From IMG/VR virus record IMGVR_UViG_3300021964_009736, positions 1 through 60,465 of that record: a stretch of 60,465 nucleotides of DNA; one strand, given 5' to 3'. This stretch comes from a virus. Below, in pieces: positions 21,007 through 51,868 of this stretch (position 1 is the stretch's first letter; the number at the start of each line of letters is the position of its first letter). The notes beneath the pieces were generated by a model. The model did not search any database, had not been told where the DNA came from, and saw only the letters and a list, made by a program, of their open reading frames with translations. Position numbers and translations under genes: made by a program.

Positions 21007-21035
21007 TTGACTCCATATCAAAATGAAAGTATAAT
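21007..21035 (+). promoter_or_regulatory. Strong sigma70-type promoter opening the tailoring island
   Basis: TTGACT at 21007-21012 and TATAAT at 21030-21035 are separated by exactly 17 bases, a near-perfect host sigma70 promoter. It lies in the 63-base gap between the structural module and the next gene, with the start expected near 21042 and ATG at 21062. An AATAAATC late-like octamer (20997-21004) overlaps the left side. Early expression of the downstream island is inferred. Confidence 0.75.
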
Positions 21036-21061
21036 AACTACTATATTAGGTAGGTATTATC

Positions 21062-21421
21062 ATGGATCATCGACTAGAAAAAGCTCTTGAATTAGCATCA
21101 TCATTAAGCATGTTTAATGATCAAAAATGTATATTGCTGAATAAATTCCAAGATCAATGTATATATTACTTTAACGGCGGTAAATTTACTGTAACACAAA
21201 GTCTAGTAAATTTTTGCTTCACGCTAACAAGTAATAACCAAACTTCTGCAGTAATAATAGATGACAACAACATTCCTATTAAGATAGAAATTCTTGAAGA
21301 TTTTTACCAAAATTTATTAAACGTTTATTCTACTGCGACTAATGAATACTATAATGATTATGAACTATTGATCAAAAAAAGATCTAAAGAACGACTTATG
21401 GATCTTGATAACAATGAGTAA
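21062..21421 (+). CDS. Conserved hypothetical phage protein, 119 aa
   Basis: First gene after the sigma70-type promoter; AGGTAGG precedes the ATG. The protein is small and mostly helical, with a central VYYF-like segment (IYYFNGGKFTVTQ) and a DDNNIPI turn, and a charged C-terminus. The motif set resembles a short protein found in marine T4-like phages, but I know no function. Its stop overlaps the next ATG by 8 bases (ATGAGTAA), so it is translationally coupled to the glycosyltransferase. Confidence 0.6.
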   Translation: MDHRLEKALELASSLSMFNDQKCILLNKFQDQCIYYFNGGKFTVTQSLVNFCFTLTSNNQTSAVIIDDNNIPIKIEILEDFYQNLLNVYSTATNEYYNDYELLIKKRSKERLMDLDNNE

Positions 21422-22229
21422 AGGTGTTGTTGTTTTTGCCTTCAAAAACGAGAAAATAGATTATATATCTCAAGCTGAATTTTTGGCAGAAAGAGTAACA
21501 AAATTTCTTGGTTTACCTACTACAATAGTAACAGATGAAAATATCAAAAGTAGTGTTTTTGATAATGTTATATTATTAGAAAAACCGAGCAAGCAAACCA
21601 AAAAATTTACAAATTTTGACAAAAGCGAAGATCTTACTTGGTATAACTGCGCACGACACAAAAGCTATGACATAACACCTTATGACAAAACACTAGTATT
21701 AGATTCTGATTATGTAATTTCAAACAATTTGCTTATAAATTGTTTCGAAACTGATGATATAATGATGTATTCTAACAATACTTTATTTTTAAATAATCCT
21801 AAACCTATGCATAATTATTTTTCAAATACTGGTCCAAAAATGTATTGGGCAACATGTTTGTATTTCACAAAAAATAAACAAGCGGAAATATTTTTTAATT
21901 TAGCTAAACATATTTTAGAAAACTATAAATTTTATTCTTTAATATATGACTTTAGTCATTCACCAATACGTAACGATTTTATTTTTTCTATTGCTACGCA
22001 TATCTTTAATAACTTTACTAACGGATCGTTTGTTAAAGATTGTCCTGGCAAACATTATATATTAGATGCAAATGATCTGTTATTAGACATAAACGATGAT
22101 ACTATAACATACCTTGCCTTTGATAGTTATAATGACCTACATAAACCTATAATATCCAAAGGGCTCAGTGTTCATGTTATGAATAAGTATTCTTTTGATC
22201 AGTTCATAGCAGGAGAAAAAAATGGATAG
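21414..22229 (+). CDS. GT-A type glycosyltransferase-like protein
   Basis: I chose ATG at 21414, which overlaps the upstream stop by 8 bases, over an in-frame TTG at 21405. Of 271 residues, the N-terminal half is Rossmann-like (GVVVFAFKN, PTTIVTDE). KTLVLDSDYVI at 92-102 supplies a D97-x-D99 pair typical of the metal and nucleotide-sugar site of GT-A enzymes. It is followed by WATCLYF. No membrane segment. It likely transfers a sugar to a phage or host acceptor; donor and acceptor are unknown. It forms a pair with the next gene. Confidence 0.6.
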   Translation: MSKGVVVFAFKNEKIDYISQAEFLAERVTKFLGLPTTIVTDENIKSSVFDNVILLEKPSKQTKKFTNFDKSEDLTWYNCARHKSYDITPYDKTLVLDSDYVISNNLLINCFETDDIMMYSNNTLFLNNPKPMHNYFSNTGPKMYWATCLYFTKNKQAEIFFNLAKHILENYKFYSLIYDFSHSPIRNDFIFSIATHIFNNFTNGSFVKDCPGKHYILDANDLLLDINDDTITYLAFDSYNDLHKPIISKGLSVHVMNKYSFDQFIAGEKNG

Positions 22230-23052
22230 AGGGTTTGTAGTATTAGCACAAAACAATGGTCAAAATGATTACATACATGATGCATTTAATCTTGCTTTAA
22301 GTTTACATTGCACACAAAAAAATACCCCTCGAATATCTTTAATTACTAATAATCCAGTTCCTGCTGAATATAGAATTTTATTCGAACATATAATACCTAT
22401 ACCTTACAATGATAGTGCGAAGTATAGTAATTGGAAAATACAAAACCGTTGGAAAATATATCATGCAAGTCCTTATACAAGGACAATAGTATTAGATGCT
22501 GACATACTTGCAACAAAAGATTTAGAATATTTATGGAATGATTTTGAAAAATATAATATTTGTTTTTCAACAAATCCTTTAACGTACCGGAATGAAGTTA
22601 TCAAAAATAATTCTTATAGAACGTGGAATGATAAACTGCCAGACATTTATTCAACTGTGCATTTTTTCAAGAAATCAGACGAAGCAAAAGAATATTACAC
22701 TTGGTTAGAGTCTGTAATGAAAAATTGGGAAGTATTTTACAAAAAGATTCTTGGTAATGATATTCCTGACAAGTGTAGTGTTGACTTGTCGTCCGCTATA
22801 GTAAATAAATTAATAAGTATAGGCGATGAATATGTATATCATAAACCTTGTTTTGTACACATGAAGCACAAAGTCTTAGGCATAAACATAGTAAATCAAA
22901 TTAAATGGACACAACAAATTCCATTATATCTAACAGACAATTTAGAACTGTATGCAGCTAATTATAAACAAAACCATCTTTTTCACTACGCCGATAGTGA
23001 TATAATTAGCAAAAGAATTACAGATACATATAGAAAATATTTAGGAGTTTAA
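22222..23052 (+). CDS. GT-A/GT8-like glycosyltransferase
   Basis: GGAGA precedes the ATG, which overlaps the previous stop by 8 bases. The 276-residue protein has RISLITNNP (37-45), an RWKIYHASPY helix and RTIVLDADIL with D92-x-D94, the DxD motif typical of GT8-like enzymes that also mark the donor site. HMKHKV near 215-220 may supply a second metal-site His. It follows a related enzyme of the same fold, suggesting sequential sugar additions. Specificity is unknown. Confidence 0.65.
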   Translation: MDRGFVVLAQNNGQNDYIHDAFNLALSLHCTQKNTPRISLITNNPVPAEYRILFEHIIPIPYNDSAKYSNWKIQNRWKIYHASPYTRTIVLDADILATKDLEYLWNDFEKYNICFSTNPLTYRNEVIKNNSYRTWNDKLPDIYSTVHFFKKSDEAKEYYTWLESVMKNWEVFYKKILGNDIPDKCSVDLSSAIVNKLISIGDEYVYHKPCFVHMKHKVLGINIVNQIKWTQQIPLYLTDNLELYAANYKQNHLFHYADSDIISKRITDTYRKYLGV

Positions 23053-23056
23053 CATT

Positions 23057-23584
23057 ATGTTTCTTTACTATAATAAATCCTCAGGAGAAGTATTAGGCGT
23101 ATCTAATAAACAGAAAGATACAGACCACGAAGTCTTACAAATTAACAATGCTTATCTAAAGAAATTTGACACAAAAAATTTACAAAAATATTATGTATAT
23201 TACAATGATAAATTAAATTCTTATGATATAGCCGAAAAGGTGACAAAAGTATCCTATCTGGATATTGCAAATAAGGTTCATATACTAGAAGAAAATCCTG
23301 ATGCAGATGTACTAGTAATAGTTGATACAAAACACAAAAAAATAAGTTGTAAACCAAATAATGGCTTCAAAGAAAAAATAGAAAAAAACATAGATGATTA
23401 TCCAATGAATTCTTTAACAATCTATATGGTGCAAAAGAATAATCCTAATGTAATTTTAGATACTTTTTCGTTTAATACTATAAATTTATTAAATGATAGT
23501 TGTGCAAATATAGATATTTCTACTATACATTGTGATTTTATGGTTACAAAGGTATTTGATAGTTACGGTATTGTATATGAATAA
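23057..23584 (+). CDS. Hypothetical protein, 175 aa
   Basis: GGAG lies 8 bases before the ATG. The chain alternates strands and charged segments (FLYYNKSSGEVLGVSN, ADVLVIVDTKHKKISC), with many Asn, Asp and Lys, and no catalytic motif, signal peptide or membrane segment. It sits between glycosyltransferase genes and its stop overlaps the next ATG by 8 bases. A binding or scaffold role is possible; I do not recognise it. Confidence 0.5.
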   Translation: MFLYYNKSSGEVLGVSNKQKDTDHEVLQINNAYLKKFDTKNLQKYYVYYNDKLNSYDIAEKVTKVSYLDIANKVHILEENPDADVLVIVDTKHKKISCKPNNGFKEKIEKNIDDYPMNSLTIYMVQKNNPNVILDTFSFNTINLLNDSCANIDISTIHCDFMVTKVFDSYGIVYE

Positions 23585-24464
23585 ATTAGCTATAGCTGAC
23601 ACTGATATAATTTATCTAAGTTTTGATGAACCTAATGCAGAAGAAAATTATTCTGACTTGCTGAGTAAATTTCCGTGGGCAAAACGTGTACACGGTGTAG
23701 AAGGATCAGATGCGGCACACAAAGCCTGTGCAGATATAGCAGAAACAAATAACTTTGTAACAGTAGACGGAGATAACAAAGTTAATCCAAGGTTTTTTGA
23801 TCAAATAGTAGACTTTGAAAAACATGACATAGACAAAAGTTATGTAGTAAGTTGGTGCGGAAAAATACATGTAAATGGTTTGATGTACGGAAACGGTGGA
23901 CTTAAATTATGGAATAAAGATTTTGTATATAATATGAAAACACACGAGGCGAGTGAAGGTGATGAAAAATATTCTGTAGAATTTTGTTTCGATCCTAAAT
24001 ATTTTCAACTAAATGAAAATTTTTCTGTTAGTTATACAAATTCTACACCTTGGCAAGCATGGCGTGCCGGATTTAGAGAAGGTGTAAAGATGTGTTTAGA
24101 TTCAGGAGTCAAAGTATCTAACATCAAAACACTATGGTGGCAAAACTACCACAGACTTTTAGTATGGTGTAATATTGGACATCATACTACAAATGGCATT
24201 TATAGTATATTAGGCGCTAGGGCAGGACTTTACAAAACAATGTGTGATAAATGGAACTATGAACTAGTAAGAGATTTTAGATATCTAAACAAGTTGTTTG
24301 ATGATGAATATGATTTAACAATATCAAAAGCATATGAAATGTCTGTAGATTTAGGAAGCAAAATATACAACGAACTTGACATACCAGTTAGTCCTGAGCC
24401 ATTATCAGAATTGCAAAGTAATTTTTTTAAAGAAGTATATATTAATACGAAAAGAGTTTTATAA
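23577..24464 (+). CDS. Glycosyltransferase-like protein, paralogue of the gene at 29870
   Basis: ATG at 23577 overlaps the previous stop by 8 bases; upstream in-frame codons are not needed. The 295 residues open with IIYLSFDEPNAEENY and FPWAKRV. D64-x-D66 (VTVDGDNKVNP) is the likely DxD site, and YGNGGLKLW follows. The protein at 29870 repeats the same order (ENYNNLL, FPIAKRV, VVDADAD, YGYGGIKLL), so the two are paralogues 5 kb apart. A GT-A fold is inferred. C-terminal 90 residues have no recognised motif. Confidence 0.6.
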   Translation: MNKLAIADTDIIYLSFDEPNAEENYSDLLSKFPWAKRVHGVEGSDAAHKACADIAETNNFVTVDGDNKVNPRFFDQIVDFEKHDIDKSYVVSWCGKIHVNGLMYGNGGLKLWNKDFVYNMKTHEASEGDEKYSVEFCFDPKYFQLNENFSVSYTNSTPWQAWRAGFREGVKMCLDSGVKVSNIKTLWWQNYHRLLVWCNIGHHTTNGIYSILGARAGLYKTMCDKWNYELVRDFRYLNKLFDDEYDLTISKAYEMSVDLGSKIYNELDIPVSPEPLSELQSNFFKEVYINTKRVL

Positions 24465-25823
24465 ATGAATGAAGATCAAGAGTTTAATAACTTAGTTGAA
24501 AAAAAATTAAACAGTGTAAGCTGTAGCTTTTGCTTGGCAAAATGGAAACAGGTTACACTTCATTTAGGAACAGGTCACACACATAGTTGTCATCATCCTC
24601 GCACACATAAGATCCCATTGGAGGAAATTAAAGAAAATCCTAGTGCATTGCACAATACTAATTACAAAAAAATACAAAGAAAAATGATGCTTGAAGGAAC
24701 ACGGCCGCCTGAATGTAATTATTGTTGGAATGTAGAAGATGCAATTAAGGCAGAAGGTAATGATGTTATCAAAAGTGATAGGATTTACAAAAGTGGTGAC
24801 AGTTGGGCTAGAAAGTATTTTTATGAAGTTGCAGAAAGCGACTGGAAAGACAACGTAAATCCTAGTTATCTTGAAGTAAGTTTTAGTAATGTGTGTAATT
24901 TTAAGTGCGGTTACTGCAATCCTGAAAATAGTAGCAAGTGGATGGAAGAAATAAAGCAGTTTGGTGCTTATCCTACTAGAGATAACTTTAATGATCTGGA
25001 ATGGACAAAAAGCCAAGACAAGATGCCTATACCTGAAAATCAAGACAATCCTTATGTTGAAGCATTTTGGAAATGGTGGCCTGATTTATATAAAGACTTA
25101 CACACATTTAGGATAACAGGTGGAGAACCTTTACTAAACAAAAACACCTTTAAAGTGTTAGATTGGTTAATTGAAAATCCGCAACCTAAATTAGATCTAG
25201 CAGTAAACAGCAATTTATGTGTACCTAAAGAATTACTAGATAAGTTTTTGGAAAAGGTTGAAATATTAATAAGTAGTGGGCATTGCCGGTCATTCAAATT
25301 ATATACAAGTAATGAAGCATATGGAAGTAAAGCAGAATACATAAGATTTGGACTTAATTACAAAGATTGGTTAGAAAACTGTGAAAGATTTTTACAAATC
25401 CCTGGTAGAACAAAACTAGTGTGTATGGCTGCATATAATTTTTTAAGCATATCCAGTTTCAAAAATTTACTTGAAGATATTAAGTATCTTAAAGACAAAT
25501 ATACTAGTGAAGAAACTAAAGAAAGAGTAGCAATAGATATTCCATACTTGAATAATCCAAAATTTCTAAGTATAAATTTAGTTACACCCGAATTTACACC
25601 TTATATTGAAGATTCTATACAATACGCAAAAAATAATAATTTTGCAAAATGGGAAGTAGATAAGTTAGAAAGAATTCTAATGTTGGCAAATAATGCTGTA
25701 GCAGATGATTTGTTAAATATCGATTTCAAAAAATATATTATCGAACACGACCGTAGAAGGAATACAAACTTTTTAGAAACTTTTCCTGAATACAAAGATT
25801 TTTATGAAAGTATATTAACGTAA
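24465..25823 (+). CDS. Twitch-type radical SAM enzyme (1 of 5)
   Basis: The radical SAM cluster motif is C144-x3-C148-x2-C151 (SNVCNFKCGYC) with TGGEPLL near 223. N-terminal cysteines (C20, C23, C42, C84, C87) precede it, as in proteins with an N-terminal twitch-like auxiliary Fe-S region. The C-terminus has R-R-N-T-N-F-x3-FPE, a signature shared by four other radical SAM proteins in this window. Such enzymes abstract hydrogen via 5'-deoxyadenosyl radical and often modify peptides. It starts next to the previous stop. Its 3' end overlaps the opposite-strand gene by 9 bases. Confidence 0.8.
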   Translation: MNEDQEFNNLVEKKLNSVSCSFCLAKWKQVTLHLGTGHTHSCHHPRTHKIPLEEIKENPSALHNTNYKKIQRKMMLEGTRPPECNYCWNVEDAIKAEGNDVIKSDRIYKSGDSWARKYFYEVAESDWKDNVNPSYLEVSFSNVCNFKCGYCNPENSSKWMEEIKQFGAYPTRDNFNDLEWTKSQDKMPIPENQDNPYVEAFWKWWPDLYKDLHTFRITGGEPLLNKNTFKVLDWLIENPQPKLDLAVNSNLCVPKELLDKFLEKVEILISSGHCRSFKLYTSNEAYGSKAEYIRFGLNYKDWLENCERFLQIPGRTKLVCMAAYNFLSISSFKNLLEDIKYLKDKYTSEETKERVAIDIPYLNNPKFLSINLVTPEFTPYIEDSIQYAKNNNFAKWEVDKLERILMLANNAVADDLLNIDFKKYIIEHDRRRNTNFLETFPEYKDFYESILT

Positions 25824-27380
25824 ATTTTTCATTGCATAAGGCAATTCAACTAGAGCCTTAGTATTATGGATTAGCACTGCCTCCATTTGTACTAGCATCT
25901 TATCTAATTGACTTTTAGGCAATCTACAGATTCTACTTACTTCAGAACCAATCATTTCTAATCTTTTTTCGTGGTTTGTTTCTTCATCATAACTTTCATC
26001 TAGCCATTTAGAAAAAGTTTTAAATCCTAAATCTTTCATAAGTTGTAAACTTCCGGGAGGTCCTGCAATGATAAACGGTCTCATAGCCGCCGCTGCTTTT
26101 AAAGTTTTTTCACTTACATAAGGCATAGGAGAATAATACCTTGTCTCTGTAGCAACATTTAGAAAGCTGTTTTGTATTATGTAAATGCTTCTAAATTGAT
26201 CCATATCATCTATATCAATTTCTTCTTTTAATTTATCATCGTATAATCCTGCAGGTCTAAAGTCTACATAATACTCTTTTTCTAGTAATAATTTATTATT
26301 ATCTATCATCTTATCTTGCATATTCTTTGAAAATTTACTAAATTTCAAACTAGGATTAGCCATTAAGTTTTGTTCATTTATTCTATAAGGCATACTTAAT
26401 GCAAGATTAGGACAATCAGCAATCATAGTTGCCATAATATATCTGTGCCAATCAAATCTTCTATTTAAACAGACCGCATGATTTTCGAAAGAATTATCAT
26501 AGTGGCTAATTACTTTACACATGATGTTGTCTGTTTTCTTAGTGCCAACTGGTTCGAACATTCTTTTGTACGCTTCGTATGTTTCCCAATTTCCTACTAA
26601 TATGAATTTATTATTACTTGCAACAAGTAAAGGATGATGAATGTGTAAGTCTGTTGCTTTATTAGATGTATGACCTTCATTTTGTATTGCTGTATATAAA
26701 CTCTTTAAATTATTTGTAATTCTTTCTACTTCAGGCTCATGTGCTGTATATTCGGTTGGGATGATATCTGCAAAAGGAACAGCAGTATTCCGACCCACAC
26801 TAGCAGTTTTGACACTGCTTTCGTCTACTAATCTAATACCTAAATAGTTTTGTTCAGACAAGAACCAGTCATAATACTTGATGGGAAATCCATATCTTTC
26901 TTCAAGATGGGTGCAATTACGCTCTCCAGAAAAAACTTCAAAATTCTTTATACCTGCGTTGTTTACTAGATATTCGACTATTTCTAATTCCATAGCTCCA
27001 GTATTTTTAGGATCTGATTGTAACAAGTAAGTATCAAATGTTCTACCCGGATGAAAATGTTTGTTGTGTACTATTCTAAACACATCTTCTACAAAAAAAT
27101 AAACCTTTGCTTTATTTGTGAGTTTTGCAAGTCGTCTAAGTATTATATTACAGTCTTCAAAATATACCCATCCTGATATTAACACAACAAAATCATCCTT
27201 GCCAAAATTAAAGGACTTTTGTGCCATTTCAAAGTAAGCAGGCGTAGATAACTTCTTATGCCTGCCGTTATGAGACATTAATGCAGAACCTTTATTATAT
27301 AAAGTAATAGACGGATGTTTAATAGGTTGCAACAGTTCAGTATGACGATCCTTATTAAATGCTTTTAGTTCTCTTTTCAT
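25815..27380 (-). CDS. Putative glycosyltransferase, exostosin/fucosyltransferase-like C-terminus
   Basis: The ATG overlaps the upstream stop (ATGA). The 521-residue protein has a Rossmann-like start (FVVLISGWVYF) and, in its last 130 residues, ATETRYYSP, VSEKTLKA, RPFIIAGPPGS and GFKTF. That order (F..V.EKT.KA...G.PFI..G..G....L...GFKTF) is the signature I know from GT10/GT47-like phage glycosyltransferases. Last gene of a three-gene leftward block with an SGNH hydrolase and a 2OG oxygenase. Acceptor is unknown. Confidence 0.6.
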   Translation of the reverse strand: MKRELKAFNKDRHTELLQPIKHPSITLYNKGSALMSHNGRHKKLSTPAYFEMAQKSFNFGKDDFVVLISGWVYFEDCNIILRRLAKLTNKAKVYFFVEDVFRIVHNKHFHPGRTFDTYLLQSDPKNTGAMELEIVEYLVNNAGIKNFEVFSGERNCTHLEERYGFPIKYYDWFLSEQNYLGIRLVDESSVKTASVGRNTAVPFADIIPTEYTAHEPEVERITNNLKSLYTAIQNEGHTSNKATDLHIHHPLLVASNNKFILVGNWETYEAYKRMFEPVGTKKTDNIMCKVISHYDNSFENHAVCLNRRFDWHRYIMATMIADCPNLALSMPYRINEQNLMANPSLKFSKFSKNMQDKMIDNNKLLLEKEYYVDFRPAGLYDDKLKEEIDIDDMDQFRSIYIIQNSFLNVATETRYYSPMPYVSEKTLKAAAAMRPFIIAGPPGSLQLMKDLGFKTFSKWLDESYDEETNHEKRLEMIGSEVSRICRLPKSQLDKMLVQMEAVLIHNTKALVELPYAMKNLR

Positions 27381-28072
27381 TTTATTTCCATTTGTTCTTT
27401 TATGTAATTTGCAAACTCTCTATGGCCTGCAGCATTAGGATGTCCGCAAGGGAGAAAATATTTACTCGGTCTATGGTTTTCTCTTTCTACTACAGCCCTT
27501 TGCCAATCTTTGCCCATGTTCTTTTTAGCAAATCTACTAACCAATTTGTAATTTTTATCGCTCATCCAATCAAATTCAAAAATAGGCATCCTATGTTTAA
27601 AGCCTATACCATTGTCCTGTTTTACTAGATACTCAAAAAACGTAAATGGCAAATAATTTTCTCCTGTTAATATTTCGTCAAACACAGAAAAGAAAATTAT
27701 TTCTGTACATGTATTTAAGCATTTTTGCCTAATTAACTTTTCATATTCTTTTGTAGGTCCTATCATCAGGTCAAGAGTTTTTATTTCTTTAAAGATTATC
27801 TCTCTGCGATTTTGTAAATTAGGCGGCACATAGCAAAAATCTATTGTACGCGAGCCGTAACTTCTACGTGTTACACCCGACCATCCTACAATTACAAGAT
27901 CATATTTTTCTTTACGCATGTTACTAGAAAAAATTTTATATATTTTTTCATTACTGGCGCCTGAAGTTCCGTGATTATCAACATCATGCCCTAACAACAT
28001 AGGCCAGGGAAGTTCATCTTCTTTTAATCCATATCCTTCTGTCCAACTACAACCTACTGTTAATATTCTCAT
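27377..28072 (-). CDS. SGNH/GDSL-type hydrolase
   Basis: ATG at 28072 overlaps the previous stop (ATGA); an in-frame TTG four codons earlier is less likely. G-C-S-W at residues 7-10 supplies the block I Ser (S9), GTSGASNEK the block II Gly and Asn, VGWSG the third block, and GHPNAAGH near the C-terminus the catalytic His (about 217). Such enzymes are esterases or acyltransferases, often acting on acetyl groups of sugars. The position between a glycosyltransferase and an oxygenase suggests glycan de-acylation or acylation. Confidence 0.7.
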   Translation of the reverse strand: MRILTVGCSWTEGYGLKEDELPWPMLLGHDVDNHGTSGASNEKIYKIFSSNMRKEKYDLVIVGWSGVTRRSYGSRTIDFCYVPPNLQNRREIIFKEIKTLDLMIGPTKEYEKLIRQKCLNTCTEIIFFSVFDEILTGENYLPFTFFEYLVKQDNGIGFKHRMPIFEFDWMSDKNYKLVSRFAKKNMGKDWQRAVVERENHRPSKYFLPCGHPNAAGHREFANYIKEQMEIK

Positions 28073-28569
28073 TTGTACTCGCAAAATGTAATTTGGGCAG
28101 TATATCTAGGTTCTAGTCCTAAATTTGCAGCCATATGTAAGCAATCATGATTCCAAAGCACATAAGTTCCCGCAGTCCAATCTAATATTTTTCCATCTAT
28201 TTCAAAAATATGTCCCGGTCTTCTATCTTCTAGGAATATTATAGCTCTTTTAATGACACTAGGATCATCTATATTATAAAGTTCTCTATATTTTTTGTAA
28301 GTATCAGAGTGATGAGGAAGTATGTTACATGTATTCATTTTATAGAAGCTCAAAGTTATATTTACTCCGTCAAATAATTTCATGAATTTACTGGTCCAAT
28401 CGGGCATTTCTCTACTCATATCGTAAAGTTTACCAGTAAATTCTTTTTGACTGTATCCTTGGAGTTTCCAAGTTTGTATTTGTAAACTATCATTAAATGG
28501 TAGTCGCTGATAGTCTAGTTCCTTATGTTGCATTTTCCAAAAAGGTTGAATCAAACCAGTAGAATACAT
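28069..28569 (-). CDS. 2OG/Fe(II) oxygenase-like protein (1 of 7)
   Basis: AGGAG precedes the ATG. H87-x-D89 (PHHSDTY), H145 (HDCLHMAANL) and R155 (RYTAQITF) form the 2-His-1-Asp iron triad and 2-oxoglutarate-binding Arg of the aspartyl/asparaginyl hydroxylase-like jelly roll. At 166 residues it is a bare catalytic core. First gene of the leftward block; the octamer GATAAATA lies 32 bases upstream. Hydroxylation of a protein side chain or peptide is the family's usual reaction; the substrate here is unknown. Confidence 0.7.
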   Translation of the reverse strand: MYSTGLIQPFWKMQHKELDYQRLPFNDSLQIQTWKLQGYSQKEFTGKLYDMSREMPDWTSKFMKLFDGVNITLSFYKMNTCNILPHHSDTYKKYRELYNIDDPSVIKRAIIFLEDRRPGHIFEIDGKILDWTAGTYVLWNHDCLHMAANLGLEPRYTAQITFCEYK

Positions 28570-28600
28570 TATAACTCCTAGGTAAATAAACTGCGTATAT

Positions 28601-28608: not shown

Positions 28609-28618
28609 AGGAGTACAA

Positions 28619-42486: not shown

Positions 42487-42500
42487 TACTACCTATAGCT

Positions 42501-44517: not shown

Positions 44518-45997
44518 AGATTGGAATAGTATTACAGTTGATAGATATTGGGATAGACAGGGTAACACTTCTAATGATATAGGTATAGGTATCCTAGATA
44601 TAAGTAGAGATATCTCAAGTAGCGTTATACAGAAGCGTTGTTTTGATATGACATACTTTTATATCAATAGAATGGTAAAGATGGGAATCTGTAAATACTT
44701 AGGATTTGAAAATACAGTAGAAAAAATATTAGAATCAGCAGACAACGCCGGCAAAAAATATTGTTTGATAGCATGTCAGGGAAATTTACTTTTCCGAGGA
44801 CCAACTATAATAAATCTTACTTTGAAGTATATAGAAGAAAATCCAGATTTTTTTGTTATTGGTCATATAATAGACAAACAAAAACAAAAATCAACTACAG
44901 ATATATACCCTGGGTTACATAGGCAATATCTTTTTGTAAATGTACGAAAATGGCGAGCGTTGGGTAGCCCTCAGTTTGATGAAATTGGTTACTTTAAGGA
45001 CAGGAAACCAGTGCTTGCGAATTATCAATGTAGTCAAGATACATGCTATGCTAATTATACACCTGCGTATATCAAAGGTTTACCCGGGGAGCAAGAATAC
45101 ACAGAAACAAGTGATGGAAGTAATTGGATAGATATCGCATGTAGAAATGATATACGCATAGATAATTTAACAGACAAAATGCGAGATTGTAAAGTTTTTC
45201 TTTATCCTTATAGTGATACTGAAATTTTAGAAAAGGTTTGGTACAATAAACAATCTCCTTTAGTTGACAAAATTACCAATCAAAGTCAAAAAGCATGGAT
45301 TAGAAAATTAGGTTATCAAGAAGAAATAGAAAAAGATAGGGTATATGCATTTAACACAGAGATATTAAGTGGAGAAGGAATACGTTCTCAAACTATAGAT
45401 CATTTTTTCTCTGTAGCGGCAGGATTTAAGCCTTTGGCTATCTTAAATGCAAACGGATTCCACGAAAAAACAACAGTGACTTATTTTGATTGGTGCGAAG
45501 CAAGTTTAAATTACAAAAAACATTTATTAGAAACTTGGGACGGTGTAGACTTACACAAATGGCTTCTGGAGCATGATTTACTTTATAACTTTTCTAGCAC
45601 TTATAGAGGCACATACGAAGAATTTTGGATACAAGAAGCAAATGAACATGGCGGTCCTGAATCATTTAAGAATTTATGGGATAGGTATAGAAAATTAGAA
45701 CATAACTTTTGTGTAATTGATATTGTTAATAATCCAGAACTATTATTTGATAAAGTAAATAAGTGTATAGGAAATAAAGTTATGTGGACAACTAATATTT
45801 GGTCAAGCGAAATGTTGCACTGGAATGTTGAACCAGAGGTACTAGAACAGAAATGGATTAATTTTGAAAAACTTGTACCAAATGATCTAGTTCTTTACGG
45901 ACATGACTACATGGGTGTAGATATAAATCAGAGAGTGAGGAATAATGCAAGGACAACACATCCCCGGTTTCAAACCGTATATTCAAGTTTATCCTAG
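44510..45997 (+). CDS. Unknown 495-residue protein, possible glycosyltransferase
   Basis: The ATG overlaps the previous stop by 8 bases. Residues 80-160 read like a GT-A sugar-nucleotide region (KYCLIACQGN, FFVIGHIIDKQ, YPGLHRQYLFVN), recalling collagen-lysine glycosyltransferases, but no clear DxD is visible. The C-terminal half (VTYFDWCEASLNYKK, LLETWDGVDLHKW) has no recognised motif. Two domains are likely. Its last 53 bases overlap the next oxygenase gene. In context, it may glycosylate residues hydroxylated by neighbours, which is speculative. Confidence 0.4.
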   Translation: MSEDWNSITVDRYWDRQGNTSNDIGIGILDISRDISSSVIQKRCFDMTYFYINRMVKMGICKYLGFENTVEKILESADNAGKKYCLIACQGNLLFRGPTIINLTLKYIEENPDFFVIGHIIDKQKQKSTTDIYPGLHRQYLFVNVRKWRALGSPQFDEIGYFKDRKPVLANYQCSQDTCYANYTPAYIKGLPGEQEYTETSDGSNWIDIACRNDIRIDNLTDKMRDCKVFLYPYSDTEILEKVWYNKQSPLVDKITNQSQKAWIRKLGYQEEIEKDRVYAFNTEILSGEGIRSQTIDHFFSVAAGFKPLAILNANGFHEKTTVTYFDWCEASLNYKKHLLETWDGVDLHKWLLEHDLLYNFSSTYRGTYEEFWIQEANEHGGPESFKNLWDRYRKLEHNFCVIDIVNNPELLFDKVNKCIGNKVMWTTNIWSSEMLHWNVEPEVLEQKWINFEKLVPNDLVLYGHDYMGVDINQRVRNNARTTHPRFQTVYSSLS

Positions 45998-46649
45998 AAT
46001 TGATACAGATTGGAAAGTTAAAGAACTTTTTGATGTAGATGTAGAAAAAATTTTAGACTGGTATGAGGATTTAGAAACTAATTGGCGAGATTGGAAATTT
46101 ATCCACGGACAGCATGCCGAGAAAATGTGGAAAATGGAAATATGCGATCCAACGGGAAAAACAGGACACATTCTGCCTGACGATAGTGCTTGGTATATTC
46201 TTTGCCAGAATAGCGATAAACCAGGACCGTTCCCACCAGAACAAAGTGTTGCAAGACAAGAATATACAGATGACGACAATGATGAACTTAATCCTCGGAA
46301 AAATTTTTACGGTTATGGACTTGATATAGTAGAAAGTTTACCATTTAAGAGTAAGAAATGGATGGTAACAATTCATACCCCAGGAACCAAATTAATTACA
46401 CATCAGGATTGTCCTGATAAATTTCGTGTTCATATTCCAATTGAAACTAATGACGATAGTTTTTGGATAATAGACGGCGAAGAGTTTCATATGAAACCAG
46501 GTAAGGTATATCTTGTGAACACATCACTTCCTCATAGTGTAGAGAATAAAGGTGATACAAACAGAATACATCTTTATGGAAAAGTATGGGCAAGAGACAT
46601 ATGTGAAAGTTACAACATAGATATTCCTGAGGAATTAGAATGGATTTAG
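45945..46649 (+). CDS. 2OG/Fe(II) oxygenase-like protein (4 of 7)
   Basis: GAGG precedes the ATG, which lies 53 bases inside the previous gene. H153-x-D155 (ITHQDCPD), H197 (SLPHSVEN) and R207 (TNRIHLY) form the active site. The sequence resembles the product of the gene at 47340 in the order PGxK...HTD/HQD, V-H-(I/V)-P-I, L-V-N-T, H-x-(V/T)-x-(N/E). A protein or peptide beta-hydroxylase is likely. It overlaps the following gene by 10 bases. Confidence 0.75.
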   Translation: MQGQHIPGFKPYIQVYPRIDTDWKVKELFDVDVEKILDWYEDLETNWRDWKFIHGQHAEKMWKMEICDPTGKTGHILPDDSAWYILCQNSDKPGPFPPEQSVARQEYTDDDNDELNPRKNFYGYGLDIVESLPFKSKKWMVTIHTPGTKLITHQDCPDKFRVHIPIETNDDSFWIIDGEEFHMKPGKVYLVNTSLPHSVENKGDTNRIHLYGKVWARDICESYNIDIPEELEWI

Positions 46650-47347
46650 TTAAAGAGTTTGACTTTTCGTCTTTGTTACCTAAAGATAAAGCACTATCTG
46701 CATGTGCAACTATAGATGAGTGGGTTGAAAGAGGCGATTATTGGGATGAAAATATTCAATATCAGACAAAAGGAAATATATTGTTTGATCCTAATCCGGT
46801 ATTTACAGTTCTAAGATATTCATTTATAGCTGCATGTAATTTATGGTTAGAGGATGATTTTGAACTCGGATTAATTCAATCCTGGGCTGTCAAAACAAAT
46901 AAAGAAAAATACAACAACATTGATGCAGAAAAATTATGGCATCATCATAACTATCCTAATTTAGGAGCACCTAATCCCTCCATACCCAATAAACCTCAAG
47001 ATGTAAATGGTTGCAGAATAATGAGAGGAAATATAAAGTCTCACAATAATGAAATTAGAGAAATAAGCAATGAACGTCCTGTAATATTAAGTGGTTTATT
47101 TTACTTACATGTACCAGAAGATAATGATAATATTGATTTATGTGGCACTGAATTTGCACCTAATGGATTAGATAGTAAAGAAAGATTTAACATTAAGCCC
47201 GAATACGGAAAATGGTTTATATATCCAGGATATTATTGGCACAGGACAATGCCTCAACAATCTATGAACTGGAGATACGTTATTGCTGCAGATGCAGAGA
47301 TTGACCCTGAAATTAACTTGAGATTAAGAATGGAAAAAAATGATTAA
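46640..47347 (+). CDS. 2OG/Fe(II) oxygenase, Oxy_5-like (5 of 7)
   Basis: GAGG lies just before the ATG. It differs from its neighbours: W-H-H-H-N (100-104), SGLFYLHVP (151-159), GKWFIYPGYYWH (190-201) and R212 (NWRYVI) follow the pattern of the PF13759-type oxygenases common in marine T4-like phages (H.H....SG..Y......G....FP...H...P...R). H201 is the distal His. Its target is unknown; it lies in the run of oxygenases and has coupled ends. Confidence 0.68.
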   Translation: MDLVKEFDFSSLLPKDKALSACATIDEWVERGDYWDENIQYQTKGNILFDPNPVFTVLRYSFIAACNLWLEDDFELGLIQSWAVKTNKEKYNNIDAEKLWHHHNYPNLGAPNPSIPNKPQDVNGCRIMRGNIKSHNNEIREISNERPVILSGLFYLHVPEDNDNIDLCGTEFAPNGLDSKERFNIKPEYGKWFIYPGYYWHRTMPQQSMNWRYVIAADAEIDPEINLRLRMEKND

Positions 47348-47936
47348 AGACATTAGATTTTTGCCTGTAAGTGTTGACATCGAAAAATTAAGAATTTGGT
47401 ATAAAGAGCTAAAGACAAACTATGATCATTTAAAGTGGTCGGCAAACGATAATATTAATGTAGATGAAGGTGTTGGCGGACATAATCTTAATGGTATGTA
47501 TGGCTGGGCACTTCAGAGTAATTTGGAAGATTTAAATAAACCATGTCCTCCTTACAATATTACTAAAGAAAACAAATTAGAATATAGAGACACAGAAGCT
47601 ATGTTTGGTTATGTAAAGAAGATTAAAGAATTTTTTCCTTACGCAAAACAGTTCAGTGTTGCTGTTCACCCGCCGGGAGTAAAGGTAAATACTCATACAG
47701 ATTCGGATGATTTGTTAAAGGTACACGTACCTATATACACAAATCAGAAAGCATATTTTTTGTTTCCTCCGACTGTAAAGTACATATTACCTGATAACGG
47801 TAGGATGACCCTAGTTAACACTACTGCTTTACATGGTACATTAAACGAAGGTGATAGTGAAAGAGTTCATTTATTTTTCAAAATTCCTGCAGAAATGGAA
47901 AAAGAAGTTATGAATTTATCAAAGGAAACAATATGA
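47340..47936 (+). CDS. 2OG/Fe(II) oxygenase-like protein (6 of 7)
   Basis: The ATG overlaps the previous stop by 8 bases. H119-x-D121 (NTHTDSDD), H165 (TALHGTLN) and R175 (SERVHLF) make the active site of an aspartyl/asparaginyl hydroxylase-like enzyme. HPPGVKV before the triad matches the HTPGTKL of the gene at 45945, so these are paralogues. 198 residues is a compact single domain. Located in the middle of the oxygenase run. Confidence 0.75.
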   Translation: MIKDIRFLPVSVDIEKLRIWYKELKTNYDHLKWSANDNINVDEGVGGHNLNGMYGWALQSNLEDLNKPCPPYNITKENKLEYRDTEAMFGYVKKIKEFFPYAKQFSVAVHPPGVKVNTHTDSDDLLKVHVPIYTNQKAYFLFPPTVKYILPDNGRMTLVNTTALHGTLNEGDSERVHLFFKIPAEMEKEVMNLSKETI

Positions 47937-48658
47937 GATTTTATAAAGGAAAAGATTTAGAAAAATTAGACTATGATACTATCTATAATGGAGATGATTG
48001 GGATATTATAGAGTTGAATGTTTCTTGGGATCCTATTAAAGCGTCTGAATGGTACAAGCAAGTTTGGGAAAAATTTGGTCATCTAGATTTTAACTTTAAC
48101 AGAGATCAACATTTAATTGATGTACCCGATAGTCAAATGGCATACACTGAAAACTTCTGCGGTACAGGCATGCAGATTCCTATTCACGGATTTACACTAG
48201 GATGGCCTATTGACAGAGATGATTACCCGTTACCGCCTCATAATCAAGCAAACAAGGAGTTATTTCCTGAAACTTTAGCTCCTGATTTTATTGAAACATC
48301 ATTATGGCTAGACAAGTATAAATTTGGATACATGAAAGATATTACTAGTATTTTTGAAAATTACAGATTATATCTTCCTACTTTAACTATACATGAACCG
48401 GGAGGCATAATTAATCCTCACGTTGATAGTAGGGTTAAGAAAATGCATATGATAATCGAAACAAATGAAGAAAACTATTTTACATTTGGTGAAGATCATG
48501 CTAGACAATATTTAATGGAGCCTGCAAAGGCATATATTATTAACACCCATATACCTCATGGAACTATTAATAAAGGTAAGACTGCAAGAGCACACATTTT
48601 GTTAAGAATAGAAGAAGAAGAAATGATGGATCTCTTAAAGTTAGAAGCCCATATATAA
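47933..48658 (+). CDS. 2OG/Fe(II) oxygenase-like protein (7 of 7)
   Basis: AAAGGA precedes the ATG, which overlaps the previous stop (ATGA). H163-x-D165 (NPHVDSRV), H209 (HIPHGTIN) and R219 (TARAHILL) form the active site. HEPGGIINPH before the triad matches the PGG-x-I pattern of paralogues. The first 130 residues form a longer N-terminal domain. Its C-terminus is acidic (RIEEEEMMD). A hydroxylase is well supported; the substrate is not. Confidence 0.73.
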   Translation: MRFYKGKDLEKLDYDTIYNGDDWDIIELNVSWDPIKASEWYKQVWEKFGHLDFNFNRDQHLIDVPDSQMAYTENFCGTGMQIPIHGFTLGWPIDRDDYPLPPHNQANKELFPETLAPDFIETSLWLDKYKFGYMKDITSIFENYRLYLPTLTIHEPGGIINPHVDSRVKKMHMIIETNEENYFTFGEDHARQYLMEPAKAYIINTHIPHGTINKGKTARAHILLRIEEEEMMDLLKLEAHI

Positions 48659-49140
48659 TGCTGTATCAGTGGATTCCTGAAAAGGATAAAGAAACTTTTT
48701 ATAATCATATGATTAGACCTGACATGCCAGGTTTCGGTCCTGTAATAGATAGATATCAGAATAATGGGTATCATGATATTACTGAATATGAGACATATAA
48801 GGACTGTAGATGCGGCTTCTATCTAGGAAATTACGACAATGATGTTGTAATTAATCGTCCTTGTATTGTTACATTAACAAGTGATTTTGATAACCATCTG
48901 TTTATCAAAGCTGAACGCACTATCATTTATGGAGCCAACTATAAAGCAAAAAATATAAGTATTTTCACAGACGATGATTCTTTTATGGAAACAGGAACTT
49001 GTGTTGGAAAAGTTATGTTTATAGATTTGGCAATAGATAATCTGGATATTAAAGATTCAATTAACATAGCTTTCATTAATACTACTGTTAAATCAAAAAA
49101 TATTGTTAACACAACTAGTATAGTAGAGGTTATAGATTGA
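48658..49140 (+). CDS. Unknown 160-residue protein, possible beta-solenoid
   Basis: The ATG shares its A with the previous stop (TAATG). The second half alternates short strands ending in I/V and small loops (VVINRPCIVTLTSDFDN, IIYGANYKAKNISIF, GTCVGKVMFIDLAI), which looks like a small beta-solenoid or beta-sandwich. It has two nearby Cys (CRCGFY). It lies between an oxygenase and the halogenase, so it could be a substrate-carrier or a substrate. No family is recognised. Confidence 0.5.
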   Translation: MLYQWIPEKDKETFYNHMIRPDMPGFGPVIDRYQNNGYHDITEYETYKDCRCGFYLGNYDNDVVINRPCIVTLTSDFDNHLFIKAERTIIYGANYKAKNISIFTDDDSFMETGTCVGKVMFIDLAIDNLDIKDSINIAFINTTVKSKNIVNTTSIVEVID

Positions 49141-50654
49141 AAATTTGTATAGTAGGCGGCGGAACAGCCGGATGGATTTCACTAAGTTACTTAGCGGCCA
49201 CTACAAAATACGATCTTACTATTTTACATAGTGATGAAATAGATGCTATAGGAGTGGGGGAAAGCACCACTCCTACTATCAAACATCTTGTAGATGTTAT
49301 AGGCATAGATGAAAAAACATGGATGAAGGATTCAAAAGCAACCTTTAAATATGGCATAGAATTTAAAGACTTTGCAAAAAAAGGTTCTAGATGGTTTCAT
49401 TCATTTGATGATCAATTGCCGCATCAAGTATTTCATCAGCCTGTTACACATAACGGCAAACTAGTTTATGACAGACAGCACACCAGTATAGATTATTTTC
49501 TGCAAACATATCCTTATGAAAGCAAACTTTTTAATGATACACACGGTCCTTTAGAATACTTATTAGAAAAAGAACTTAGTCCATTTAATGAGGCAGGAAC
49601 ACCAAACAATGGAAATTTTCCGGGATATAGTTATCATCTTAATGCTCAGTTGTTTGGAGATTGCTTAAAGAAGCATACTCCTGTTGATAGATACACGGAA
49701 ATTAATGCTACAGTAACAGACGTAGTAGTTAAAGACAATCTAGTTCAAAGTATTAAATTAGATAACGGGAATGCCATAGAAGCTGATATATTCATTGATT
49801 GTACAGGATTTCGCAGATTATTAATTAGTAAATTTAGTAAATTTCAAAAATACACTGATCTGAAAAACAACGCCGCAATTTTCGGTGTTATTCCTGGTTA
49901 TCAAATTAATAGACCATCTACAATAGCACATGCACAAGACTATGGATGGATATGGACTACACCTACAGTAGGGCAAGTAGGGACCGGGTATGTATATAGC
50001 GATGATTATATTTCAGAACAATATGCATTAGATACACTTAACAAATACTGGGAAGACCGCGGACAAAAATTCCAATTAGCAAAATCAGTAAAGTTTACAG
50101 CTGGTAGACAGGAAAAATTAAGTTTTGGAAATGTAATTTCAAATGGACTAGCACAAAGTTTTATTGAACCATTAGAAGCTACAAGTTTAATGGTCACATG
50201 TGTTACAGTAAAGAGCCTAGTAACATTGCTTAATAAACCAAGAAAAACTACAATTGAGTCTATTACAAAGGTTCATTCTAAGCACATGGAAAAATTTATA
50301 GACCACACAAAGTATTTTGTGTATATGCATTATGCTTTAAGCTCTCGTAATGATACAGATTATTGGAAAGATGTAGGTAACAAGGAAAATGCAGATAAAC
50401 AAGCCACAGACTATATTGTTAATAGAGTTAATACCAGTCAATGGTTACATAGTGGAGAAACACTTTTAAACCAATTTAATTGGGTAAGTATGCTCATTGG
50501 CTACGATAAGTCATACGGCAAATTGTTGCCTAAATTTAATAGTAGTGAGATAGAGAACTATAAATGGTATACAGAAAATCTTATGGCTAACTACAAATTT
50601 ATTACCAGAAACAATATTCCTGTAAAGGACTTGTTAATTGATATTAATGGTTAG
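49137..50654 (+). CDS. Flavin-dependent (tryptophan-type) halogenase
   Basis: Start is TTG at 49137, overlapping the previous TGA, with AGAGGT 6 bases upstream. GGGTAGW (7-13) binds FAD; GVGEST (39-44) follows. K71 (ATFKYGI) matches the hypohalous-acid Lys of tryptophan halogenases (K79 in PrnA), W271-I-W273 (GWIWTTP) the W-x-W-x-x-P motif, and EPLEAT (344-349) the catalytic Glu region (E346 in PrnA). At 505 residues it is near full length. A viral member of this family (VirX1) is known from a cyanophage and iodinates free molecules. The substrate here is unknown; the enzyme needs reduced flavin, and no reductase is in the window. Confidence 0.85.
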   Translation: MKICIVGGGTAGWISLSYLAATTKYDLTILHSDEIDAIGVGESTTPTIKHLVDVIGIDEKTWMKDSKATFKYGIEFKDFAKKGSRWFHSFDDQLPHQVFHQPVTHNGKLVYDRQHTSIDYFLQTYPYESKLFNDTHGPLEYLLEKELSPFNEAGTPNNGNFPGYSYHLNAQLFGDCLKKHTPVDRYTEINATVTDVVVKDNLVQSIKLDNGNAIEADIFIDCTGFRRLLISKFSKFQKYTDLKNNAAIFGVIPGYQINRPSTIAHAQDYGWIWTTPTVGQVGTGYVYSDDYISEQYALDTLNKYWEDRGQKFQLAKSVKFTAGRQEKLSFGNVISNGLAQSFIEPLEATSLMVTCVTVKSLVTLLNKPRKTTIESITKVHSKHMEKFIDHTKYFVYMHYALSSRNDTDYWKDVGNKENADKQATDYIVNRVNTSQWLHSGETLLNQFNWVSMLIGYDKSYGKLLPKFNSSEIENYKWYTENLMANYKFITRNNIPVKDLLIDING

Positions 50655-51231
50655 CTCTAGCTCTATAGTATTCTTCTTCGTTTAATTTCCAAATATTTTG
50701 TTTAGTATTGAAAAGTTCAACTTCGCTATAAGCCTTAGAAAAAATCTTATTTTTAAGTAAAGTTCTATGTACAGCTAAATCCATTCTGTTACTTTTTCCT
50801 CTAGTTTCTTTATTAGTTGCACAGTTCGTGCTTAAATAGAATTCGGGTTTTTCAAACTGTTCTTTGATAAATTGCATTTGCATATGTAGTAAATAGTATG
50901 TTTGAAAACTATTAAACAGTGTACTGTCTAAACTGCCCTTCCTAGAATACTTGGGCAATGTAGCACCTCTAAATAAACATCGCCATGCATTAGGATTTAT
51001 TTGATCTAATTTATGTACTCCTGCCATGGAAAAAATTATTTCTTTTTCTGTATCTATACCTATAAAGAATTGTCCGTAAGGCATCTTCATTTTGTCGTAT
51101 TTTATGGTTTCTAAACTTACATTATTATGGTAATTTAAATCTTTACATTTATTACAAAATGATATTAATAAATCTAAATCAGATTCATTATATTGCCTAA
51201 ACAGCAGTTTTCCAAGTTTTACCATTTGCAT
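50644..51231 (-). CDS. Putative GNAT-like acetyltransferase, 195 aa
   Basis: The start at 51231 has AGGAT upstream and overlaps the adenylation gene by 35 bases. Residues 10-25 (LLFRQYNESDLDLLISF) look like the start of a GNAT fold, and a hydrophobic centre (FFIGIDTEKEIIFSMAG) resembles its beta-sheet. A clear acetyl-CoA Q/R-x-x-G-x-G/A is not seen, so the assignment is weak. It is tightly coupled with the ANL gene, suggesting acyl activation followed by transfer. Its 3' end overlaps the halogenase by 11 bases. Confidence 0.4.
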   Translation of the reverse strand: MQMVKLGKLLFRQYNESDLDLLISFCNKCKDLNYHNNVSLETIKYDKMKMPYGQFFIGIDTEKEIIFSMAGVHKLDQINPNAWRCLFRGATLPKYSRKGSLDSTLFNSFQTYYLLHMQMQFIKEQFEKPEFYLSTNCATNKETRGKSNRMDLAVHRTLLKNKIFSKAYSEVELFNTKQNIWKLNEEEYYRARANH

Positions 51232-51868
51232 CTTTTATCCTACTGTGAAAGGTCTTTGATTCCATGTTAAATAAATCTCCTGTTGCAACACCATTTATAT
51301 AACACATACTGATTTTTGATTCTATTCCTGAAACAGGCATAAACATAACATGAAATCTCTTAGTGTCTATAGTCTCTAGATCAAAAGAAATAGAATTATA
51401 ACCTACAAAAACCGGCGGCGGAAATTCAGTCATTCCATACCAATTGCCTATTTTTTGTACTCCTTTTGACAAAAATGCATCTATAAATTCTTGTGTAATT
51501 TGCGAACTACCAGTAACCATATATTTGACACTGCTCATATCTAACTCTTTGAACACTTTAGATGCAGATAATAATTCAAAATGTTTAGGTATTAAAGAAA
51601 TATAAGTTGGTTTTATTTGATTAAATAACTCGCAATATGAATATGGTGAAAAATTGGCACAAGTTAAACTAGCACCAGCTAATCTTGCAGGGTACGCTGT
51701 AACTGTATAGTGGGCAACGGTATTCCCAGGAAATACATCTAGTACCCTGTCCTCAGAAGTCAAACCGATTTCTTTTATACTTGCTTTTGCACAGTCATTG
51801 ATATAATCCCAAGAATGTGTGACTAATTTTGGTTGATCAGTACTGCCACTAGTGAATAATGTTAGCAT
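51197..51868 (-). CDS. Minimal ANL (AMP-binding) adenylation-like protein
   Basis: TSGSTDQPK (6-14) is the phosphate-binding core motif of acyl-CoA synthetase/NRPS adenylation enzymes, with Asp in place of the usual Gly. YGMTE (144-148) is the aromatic/ATP motif and TGD (196-198) plus R...KD...G (210-217) match the hinge region. The N-terminal half-domain before TSGST and the C-terminal Lys domain are missing, so at 223 residues it is less than half the usual length. It could be a stripped ligase using a partner domain, or inactive. No good Shine-Dalgarno precedes the ATG. Confidence 0.6.
   Translation of the reverse strand: MLTLFTSGSTDQPKLVTHSWDYINDCAKASIKEIGLTSEDRVLDVFPGNTVAHYTVTAYPARLAGASLTCANFSPYSYCELFNQIKPTYISLIPKHFELLSASKVFKELDMSSVKYMVTGSSQITQEFIDAFLSKGVQKIGNWYGMTEFPPPVFVGYNSISFDLETIDTKRFHVMFMPVSGIESKISMCYINGVATGDLFNMESKTFHSRIKDANGKTWKTAV

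Follow-up and report, generated by a model that had tools for sequence, protein, structure and literature searches.

What would a marine bacteriophage do with nine radical SAM proteins, seven oxygenase-like proteins and a halogenase encoded together among its fibre genes? The question is raised by IMG/VR virus record IMGVR_UViG_3300021964_009736, of which positions 1 to 60,465 (60,465 nucleotides, referred to as the window) were analyzed. The segment 21062-51868 of the window holds 35 tightly packed genes (g01-g35) that overlap or almost touch one another. The initial annotation of this DNA described a tailoring island between a fibre module and a nuclease region of a T4-like phage, and proposed a peptide natural-product or glycan-decoration pathway. 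Marine phage genomes are rich in genes for radical SAM proteins, 2-oxoglutarate (2OG) oxygenases and halogenases for which no role is agreed. We find that the island is phage DNA with a recurrent gene order, and that its core also occurs on bacterial chromosomes, which narrows 35 loose genes to a small testable set: g11, g12, g13, g14 and g15. The reading that the island is a cytoplasmic glycan-tailoring locus of these marine phages has, in our estimate, about an even chance of being correct.

Conservation and lineage of the island

A search of IMG/VR with g15 returned 169 relatives, which are contigs of uncertain completeness, and gene order was compared over 80 loci fetched from among them. 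The order g10-g11-g12-g13-g14-g15-g16-g17-g19-g20-g21-g22-g23-g24-g26-g27 recurs over the 80 loci with local losses and swaps. Comparison of the island genes with those of the two nearest relatives yielded dN/dS values of 0.02-0.25, indicating purifying selection and therefore genes in use. The same gene order in dozens of independent contigs, together with these dN/dS values, is not due to chance.

The longest relatives carry the island in the same surroundings: the giant fibre module on one side and, on the other, the Mtd_N-type gene with the nuclease and ATPase genes beyond it. All 11 relatives that contain both boundary markers have a fibre-to-Mtd_N interval of 30.1-39.0 kb with 6-11 radical SAM genes inside; the halogenase lies within the island in eight of them, and two of the contigs carry one additional radical SAM gene outside it. 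This bracketing, the same in 11 relatives, rules out cellular DNA or an assembly join, a doubt attached to the initial annotation, and the island is phage DNA. The proposed extent of 35 genes between the fibre module and the nuclease region also holds, with a minor adjustment: g01 (21062..21421, +; 119 residues, conserved) directly follows the fibre genes in relatives G001, G003, G013 and G015 and is probably part of the fibre module, so that the enzymes begin at ~21405.

The T4-like assignment stands in part. Placement in the T4 superfamily was drawn from relative G001, the window itself spanning few core genes. G001 carries a T4-type core that includes the portal (phrog_213), clamp loader, SbcC/SbcD, late sigma factor and baseplate wedge. 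However, the portal, ATPase and HNH proteins are closest to those of jumbo phages (285-490 kb) such as Phosso, Atu_ph07 and PA5oct, with the portal 50% identical to that of Sinorhizobium phage Phosso and 49% to that of Agrobacterium phage Atu_ph07. The lineage is one of uncultivated marine jumbo-type T4-superfamily phages, and the island is lineage-defining. Among 50,697 isolate phage records there is no match for g05, g12, g26 or g27, and the matches to g15 and g19 are almost only the lone radical SAM proteins of KVP40-group Vibrio phages (22-24% identity, with a twitch-like start). g15 additionally matches one marine single-cell virus.

The islands of the relatives also contain variable genes. 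These encode a class III aminotransferase, DegT, cytidylyltransferase-like and mannose-6-phosphate-isomerase-type proteins, a HAD phosphatase, carbamoyltransferase, TauD, S-adenosylmethionine decarboxylase, extra PF05118 and PF13759 proteins and, by eye, an amidinotransferase. QueC-type matches occur in the phage islands of two relatives.

Radical SAM proteins

Nine island proteins match the radical SAM profile PF04055, and the CX3CX2C motif is present in 9/9. Membership in NF033640 ('N_Twi_rSAM'), a subfamily whose twitch (half-SPASM) domain is N-terminal, required a full-length match scoring above 170 bits, the curated cut-off. Five proteins reach it: g06 (24465..25823, +; 325 bits), g15 (33079..34374, +; 416 bits), g19 (36471..37619, -; 231 bits), g23 (40397..41437, -; 240 bits) and g25 (42501..43820, +; 204 bits). 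g06 is slightly under the Pfam cut-off for PF04055. The remaining four, g12 (30507..31511, +), g13 (31414..32493, +), g17 (35027..35935, +) and g24 (41425..42474, -), score below the NF033640 cut-off; g13 has a C-terminal SPASM domain (PF13186) and g24 a weak one, with PF13186 just below cut-off. The three alignments of relatives that were inspected, those of g12, g13 and g15, show the CX3CX2C cysteines to be invariant. A literature search with little coverage of subscription papers found no publication on the function of N_Twi_rSAM; the phage and bacterial loci described here give the family a context.

An A-type iron-sulphur (Fe-S) carrier (PF01521) is encoded outside the main island in three relatives (G001:C1:140119-140418, G002:C1:106416-106721 and G015:C1:59517-59822), which would fit a phage that has to supply many enzymes with Fe-S clusters. 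The carriers of G001 and G015 have the expected three cysteines. A phage ferredoxin was considered as the radical SAM reductant and not retained: members of PHROG 3704, labelled 'ferredoxin', occur in 3/15 relatives. The member at G001:C1:104334-104981 has no ferredoxin-like cysteine pattern, and the label looks wrong.

A core module shared with bacterial chromosomes

A scan of genome contigs with g15 as the single query protein found one divergent gene in a Bdellovibrionales metagenome-assembled genome, which served as the seed for a whole-genome search. The seed genome contains ~10 N-twitch radical SAM genes above cut-off, several of them paired with SPASM-type radical SAM genes resembling g13 or g24 and one adjoining a gene for a short-chain dehydrogenase/reductase (SDR) like g18. 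The bacterial survey comprised 291 Bdellovibrionota-type genomes, a single phylum, in which orthologues were found with profiles built from the phage genes. N_Twi_rSAM proteins exceed the cut-off in 95/291 genomes, often in tandem arrays. g12 is single-copy and present in 18/291 genomes, in nearly all of which it lies ~5 kb or less from the best N-twitch gene. Orthologues of g12, g13 and g15 occur together within ~6 kb in eight of the 27 loci fetched, accompanied in most by g11, g05 and/or g14. The best bacterial identities to the window proteins are 58% for g12, 50% for g15, 43% for g14, 42% for g13, 40% for g11, 39% for g05 and 35% for g18. The core of g12, g13, g15, g11/g05 and g14 is a module common to the phage islands and Bdellovibrionota-type chromosomes.

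A tree of 108 N-twitch proteins, built quickly and with SH-aLRT support only (no bootstrap), places g15, g19, g23 and g25 each in one phage clade, and g15, g19 and g06 group with different bacterial clades. Because the phage paralogues have separate bacterial relatives, they mostly predate the phage lineage. As a separate observation, N-twitch radical SAM genes stand in tandem, three to four or more to an array, at G260:C73, G048:C4, G293:C9 and G221:C41, and most such arrays are without the g12 core.

The neighbours of the bacterial core loci include glycosyltransferase (GT) family 2 in 7/44 proteins, a CapD-like polysaccharide protein, a polysaccharide lyase, an acyltransferase/SGNH protein and two QueC-type PP-loop proteins. 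Within the eight core loci, five wholly contained GT2 genes were observed against 0.66 expected from the same genomes (P ~6e-4, counted post hoc). These neighbours, like the variable genes of the islands, fit decoration of sugars or small molecules better than peptide maturation. A VKGC/HTTM-like membrane protein suspected by eye near the bacterial modules is not among the Pfam matches listed, and no claim is made for it.

Glycosyltransferase-like proteins and the sugar dehydrogenase

The core gene g11 (29870..30556, +) encodes a protein whose AlphaFold2 model, built with 27 homologues, has a pLDDT of 90.8. Foldseek returned 12 matches at E <= 0.001, the best being the fucosyltransferase WrtF (E 1.5e-4), and VIA gave Z scores of ~9-11 to GT-A enzymes and nucleotidyltransferases. 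Its homologue g05 (23532..24464, +) has bacterial orthologues that are 39% identical, and a DxD motif is invariant over the 27 sequences of the joint g11/g05 alignment. From the model and the motif, g11 and g05 are predicted to be GT-A-fold proteins with a metal-binding DxD, for which a nucleotidyltransferase role is a possible alternative. In some relatives (L011:5524-7482, L016:175-1848 and L021:3307-4341) the g11 protein has one to several repeats of ~100 residues ahead of the GT-A domain.

The initial annotation had counted at least five glycosyltransferase-like genes. The GT-A-like model and the invariant DxD bear this out for g11 and g05, whereas none of the five has a Pfam match. g02 (21405..22229, +; DSD), conserved in relatives, and g03 (22222..23052, +; DAD) are glycosyltransferase-like by their DxD motifs. 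The proposed glycosyltransferase g07 (25815..27380, -) has no DxD and has homologues in the islands of relatives. At E 0.01, Pfam gave no match for g02, g03, g05, g07, g11, g14, g18 or g22. The last three had been called a methyltransferase, an SDR and a small kinase. The core gene g14 (32483..33082, +) is methyltransferase-like by eye, with a bacterial orthologue 43% identical, and g18 (35915..36490, -) is SDR-like by eye, with an orthologue in a bacterial radical SAM cluster. g22 (39958..40422, -) retains an invariant kinase-like pattern, H-x-D-W-V-L-S-N...D-W-D-N, together with weak kinase matches in the PDB (E 0.015).

The product of g10 (28619..29851, +) is a UDP-sugar dehydrogenase that exceeds the cut-offs of PF03721 and PF00984 and retains the catalytic-type GGACHPRD motif.

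Oxygenases, halogenase and AMP-binding protein

Seven proteins are of the 2OG/cupin oxygenase type, five by profile and two by the HxD...H motif alone. g26 (43807..44517, +; invariant H144, D146, H194 and R204), g28 (45945..46649, +) and g30 (47340..47936, +) match the aspartyl/asparaginyl hydroxylase profile PF05118 above cut-off, and g31 (47933..48658, +), which has the HxD...H motif, falls just below it. g29 (46640..47347, +) is a putative 2OG-Fe(II) oxygenase by PF13759, also above cut-off. The two identified by motif are g09 (28069..28569, -) and g16 (34374..35030, +), the latter kept in most relatives.

g33 (49137..50654, +) belongs by profile (PF04820, E 2e-86) and by its GxGxxG and WxWxxP motifs to the FAD-dependent (tryptophan) halogenases, and halogenating activity is predicted. 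g35 (51197..51868, -) is a truncated AMP-binding (ANL) protein that spans only positions 168-331 of the 384 of the PF00501 profile, with both ends of the adenylation domain missing. Thus, the sets of nine radical SAM and seven oxygenase-like proteins, the halogenase, the UDP-sugar dehydrogenase and the minimal AMP-binding protein were all recovered as initially described. The profile searches suggested as a check left most genes in the named families or without assignment, and not in unrelated families.

A proposed glycan-tailoring pathway

The initial description is upheld in that this is a tailoring island of a phage and sits at its fibre locus, with glycan decoration as the best fit. The UDP-sugar dehydrogenase, the GT-A fold and invariant DxD of g11 and g05, and the sugar-type variable genes of the relatives speak for glycan tailoring. 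No strongly hydrophobic segment is found in any of the 35 island proteins, and the enzymes therefore look soluble and cytoplasmic. In the proposed pathway g10 would make a UDP-uronic acid, and the GT-A proteins g05 and g11, possibly also g02, g03 and g07, would transfer sugars in the cytoplasm. The radical SAM proteins g12, g13 and g15 with the methyltransferase-like g14 would perform the central radical modification of the sugar or glycan. The remaining radical SAM enzymes, the 2OG oxygenases and the halogenase would then add variable late decorations, making the final structure specific to each phage. Since the island has neither an attachment or export gene nor strongly hydrophobic segments, host machinery would need to complete and export an envelope product.

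If the island does tailor a glycan, the target is somewhat more probably the host envelope, remodelled during infection, than the fibres of the phage itself, because the core module sits on bacterial chromosomes near envelope and exopolysaccharide genes, where virions are absent. Such remodelling may serve to block rival phages or re-adsorption.

Several observations weigh against glycan tailoring. Pfam finds no glycosyltransferase in the island, and the putative glycosyltransferases and their homologues yielded one weak match among 33. The GT-A fold is also that of nucleotidyltransferases such as IspD and MobA. No polymerase, transporter, glycan attachment or export gene was seen in the island. 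Characterized SPASM and twitch radical SAM enzymes mostly act on peptides, and the PDB profile matches of the island radical SAM proteins include SkfB and the anaerobic sulfatase-maturating enzyme; g15 matches SkfB alone, weakly. The substrates of PF05118 enzymes are amino acids, proteins or lipids. The halogenase fits a glycan pathway least: to our knowledge the halogenases of its family all act on aromatic groups, which are absent from ordinary glycans, and an aromatic or amino-acid substituent would be required. In addition, GT2 genes are only modestly enriched around the bacterial module, and a single lineage was sampled.

A bolder proposal, which we put forward tentatively and hold possible rather than probable, is that the module of N-twitch radical SAM, SPASM radical SAM, GT-A and methyltransferase-like proteins represents an undescribed glycan chemistry, in which radicals would edit sugars or a glycan still being built. 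The module would have passed between marine jumbo phages and Bdellovibrionota-type bacteria and, in the phages, would have grown with oxygenases and a halogenase into a modular series of decorating enzymes. If the core does edit sugars by radical chemistry, modified glycans would be reached by a new route, and the conflict between phage and host at the cell surface would gain a further layer.

Alternative functions

The strongest competitor to glycan tailoring is modification of the phage's own fibres, in which radical SAM and AspH-type enzymes would alter side chains and glycosyltransferases would attach sugars ahead of assembly, so as to diversify receptor binding or protect the fibres. In every relative that has both flanks, fibre genes stand on either side of the island, and its enzymes all look cytoplasmic. 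The PBCV-1 capsid glycosyltransferase and polypeptide GalNAc transferases are among the Foldseek matches of g11, although within a general GT-A list. However, the same core is found on bacterial chromosomes without phage genes, and with only 5 Cys among its 4560 residues the giant flanking protein is an unlikely substrate for thioether chemistry. T4-type fibre loci also gather unrelated cargo (PMC7029224). On balance we regard fibre modification as unlikely, if still a serious contender.

Lower still stands a pathway for a ribosomally synthesized and post-translationally modified peptide (RiPP) or a diffusible secondary metabolite, a small antibiotic or signal favouring the infected host. SPASM and twitch radical SAM proteins with a halogenase and an AMP-binding protein resemble natural-product clusters, a halogenated amino-acid or sugar metabolite has been proposed for a jumbo cyanophage cluster (PMC7824862), and some relatives carry a carbamoyltransferase and a class III aminotransferase. 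Against this, the island has only four intergenic gaps, the longest of 49 bp, which leaves no room for a precursor gene, although a small precursor could overlap another gene in a different frame or be encoded outside the island. Pfam detects no leader-recognition, carrier-protein, peptidase or transporter domain among the island proteins, although divergent leader-binding domains can escape Pfam. A complete adenylation domain is likewise missing, g35 lacking both ends, so that the make-up of a nonribosomal peptide synthetase or ANL pathway is not found. The peptide natural-product pathway of the initial annotation is accordingly not supported, and a RiPP or metabolite product in general appears quite improbable.

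General Fe-S or auxiliary metabolism, with unconnected radical SAM genes accumulated in a variable region, would accord with the A-type carriers of G001, G002 and G015 and with the way in which the 12 radical SAM genes and Fe-S carriers of a T4-like marine genome are described, in terms of Fe-S metabolism, by Nishimura and co-workers (PMC5332604). Nonetheless, the fixed order and place of the island across divergent relatives and the shared bacterial module show a co-inherited functional unit, and this explanation is very improbable. The least credible possibility, at a very small probability, is that the oxygenases, glycosyltransferases and radical SAM proteins build a large DNA base modification against restriction: 2OG oxygenases, glycosyltransferases, kinases and QueC-like PP-loop proteins, the last matched in two relatives, are known from phage base-modification pathways, but the oxygenases here are PF05118/PF13759 and not TET/JBP, Pfam matches no base-modification family in the island, and the core sits in bacterial glycan regions.

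Remaining island genes and flanking regions

The other island genes are less readily assigned. g04 (23057..23584, +) and g32 (48658..49140, +) have no profile match. By eye, g08 (27377..28084, -) is SGNH-hydrolase-like and g34 (50644..51231, -) acetyltransferase-like, neither with a Pfam match; g34 has a weak bacterial homologue adjoining g11 at L156. g20 (37598..38752, -), conserved, looks beta-propeller-like by eye and has no PDB or Pfam match, and g21 (38733..39992, -) is a kelch-like repeat protein with a match to PF24681 (E 5e-5) below cut-off. g27 (44510..45997, +) is strongly conserved, with 56-67% identity among relatives; its model is of low confidence (pLDDT 58) and all of its Foldseek matches are above E 0.006. 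PDB profile searches with g27, g20, g22, g11 and g26 gave nothing significant. The GC content of the island, 0.319, is slightly below that of its flanks (0.344 and 0.361). Divergent gene starts at 28569-28619 and 42474-42501 are probably the main internal promoters.

The left flank begins with a giant fibre/baseplate-type protein of 4560 residues (1..13683, +), an open reading frame cut off by the start of the contig. Its orthologues of 3956-4962 residues occupy the same position in G001, G003 and G013, the longest (~4960 residues) in G001 and G003. It is followed by a fibre module protein (phrog_11259; 13709..14320, +) whose position is kept in relatives. Next come a fibre protein with a tail collar domain (PF07484; 14324..16462, +), a paralogue (16462..18345, +) and a fibre protein that serves as the left boundary marker and has a weak Peptidase_G2 match (PF11962, E 3.5e-5, below cut-off; 18377..19897, +). 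These three adjacent proteins (14324-19897) share an N-terminal region of ~300 residues at ~30% identity, as they do in relatives. A further fibre module protein (19910..20998, +), likewise placed by its position in relatives, completes the module. On the right, the boundary marker is an Mtd_N fibre-type protein (PF18454; 51915..53360, -) found in 14/15 relatives, beyond which lie a phage HNH-family protein (phrog_1314) and an ATPase (phrog_1297) at 54903..57363 (-).

Relative G015 (loci L096-L098) has a divergent island with ten radical SAM genes, two of which encode proteins of ~535 residues that look B12-type by eye, and a carbamoyltransferase. It also encodes a 1462-residue protein with a subtilisin-like stretch, seen by eye, adjoining the g01-like genes.

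Comparison with known systems

The density of tailoring genes, described in the initial annotation as unfamiliar, has precedent. The T4-like marine genome TARA_ERS488813_N000010 (Nishimura 2017, PMC5332604) was reported to carry 12 radical SAM genes and an A-type Fe-S carrier, interpreted as Fe-S metabolism. It resembles the present lineage as a marine T4-superfamily phage with many radical SAM genes, and the largest relatives found here also have an A-type carrier. The passage on that genome gives counts and this interpretation, with no island structure, N-twitch family, bacterial module or link to glycans.

Pelagimyophages have a host recognition cluster of mean length 44.6 kb with glycosyltransferases and, in some, radical SAM cassettes, for which modification of the host O-chain was proposed (2020, PMC7029224). 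The clusters of pelagimyophages and cyanomyophages, described as located between VrlC and the neck gene gp14, resemble the island in forming a large block (34-45 kb) of the fibre locus that includes glycosyltransferases, a UDP-glucose 6-dehydrogenase and sometimes radical SAM cassettes. However, they are described as hypervariable and lacking synteny, and their glycosyltransferases belong mainly to GT8 (PMC7029224), whereas the present island has a conserved, ordered radical SAM core, is mostly syntenic, comes from a phage nearest to jumbo phages and contains putative glycosyltransferases without a Pfam family.

Cyanomyophages encode many 2OG oxygenases, prnA halogenases and carbamoyltransferases (PMC3037559), and for a jumbo cyanophage cluster of halogenase, 2OG oxygenase and carbamoyltransferase genes a role in capsule decoration or in making a metabolite was proposed (Iyer 2021, PMC7824862). 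This S-SSM6a-type cluster shares with the island a halogenase, several 2OG oxygenases or cupins, a methylase, a HAD protein and a carbamoyltransferase, the last found here in G015. It differs in having 8-12 genes, and the term 'radical SAM' appears nowhere in PMC7824862, whereas 6-11 radical SAM genes form the core here. The core of the S-SSM6a-type cluster is a carbamoyltransferase with a HemK-like methylase; the window has no carbamoyltransferase match, which is confined to the divergent relative G015. A viral halogenase, VirX1, has been characterized (PMC8407142). This FAD-dependent enzyme of cyanophage Syn10 (PDB accession number 6qgm) matches g33 with E 7e-45, and bacterial tryptophan halogenases are about as near or nearer to g33 by E-value.

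Five island proteins share NF033640 membership with bacterial homologues that stand in tandem arrays; here the family is tied to a defined trio (g12, g13 and g15) with GT-A and methyltransferase-like partners. No exact counterpart to radical SAM clusters of this make-up in phages was found in the literature searched, the related prior art being PMC5332604, PMC7029224 and PMC7824862. Thus, although radical SAM density itself has precedent, the fixed and ordered island, the dominance of N-twitch radical SAM proteins and the core module shared with bacteria are new here.

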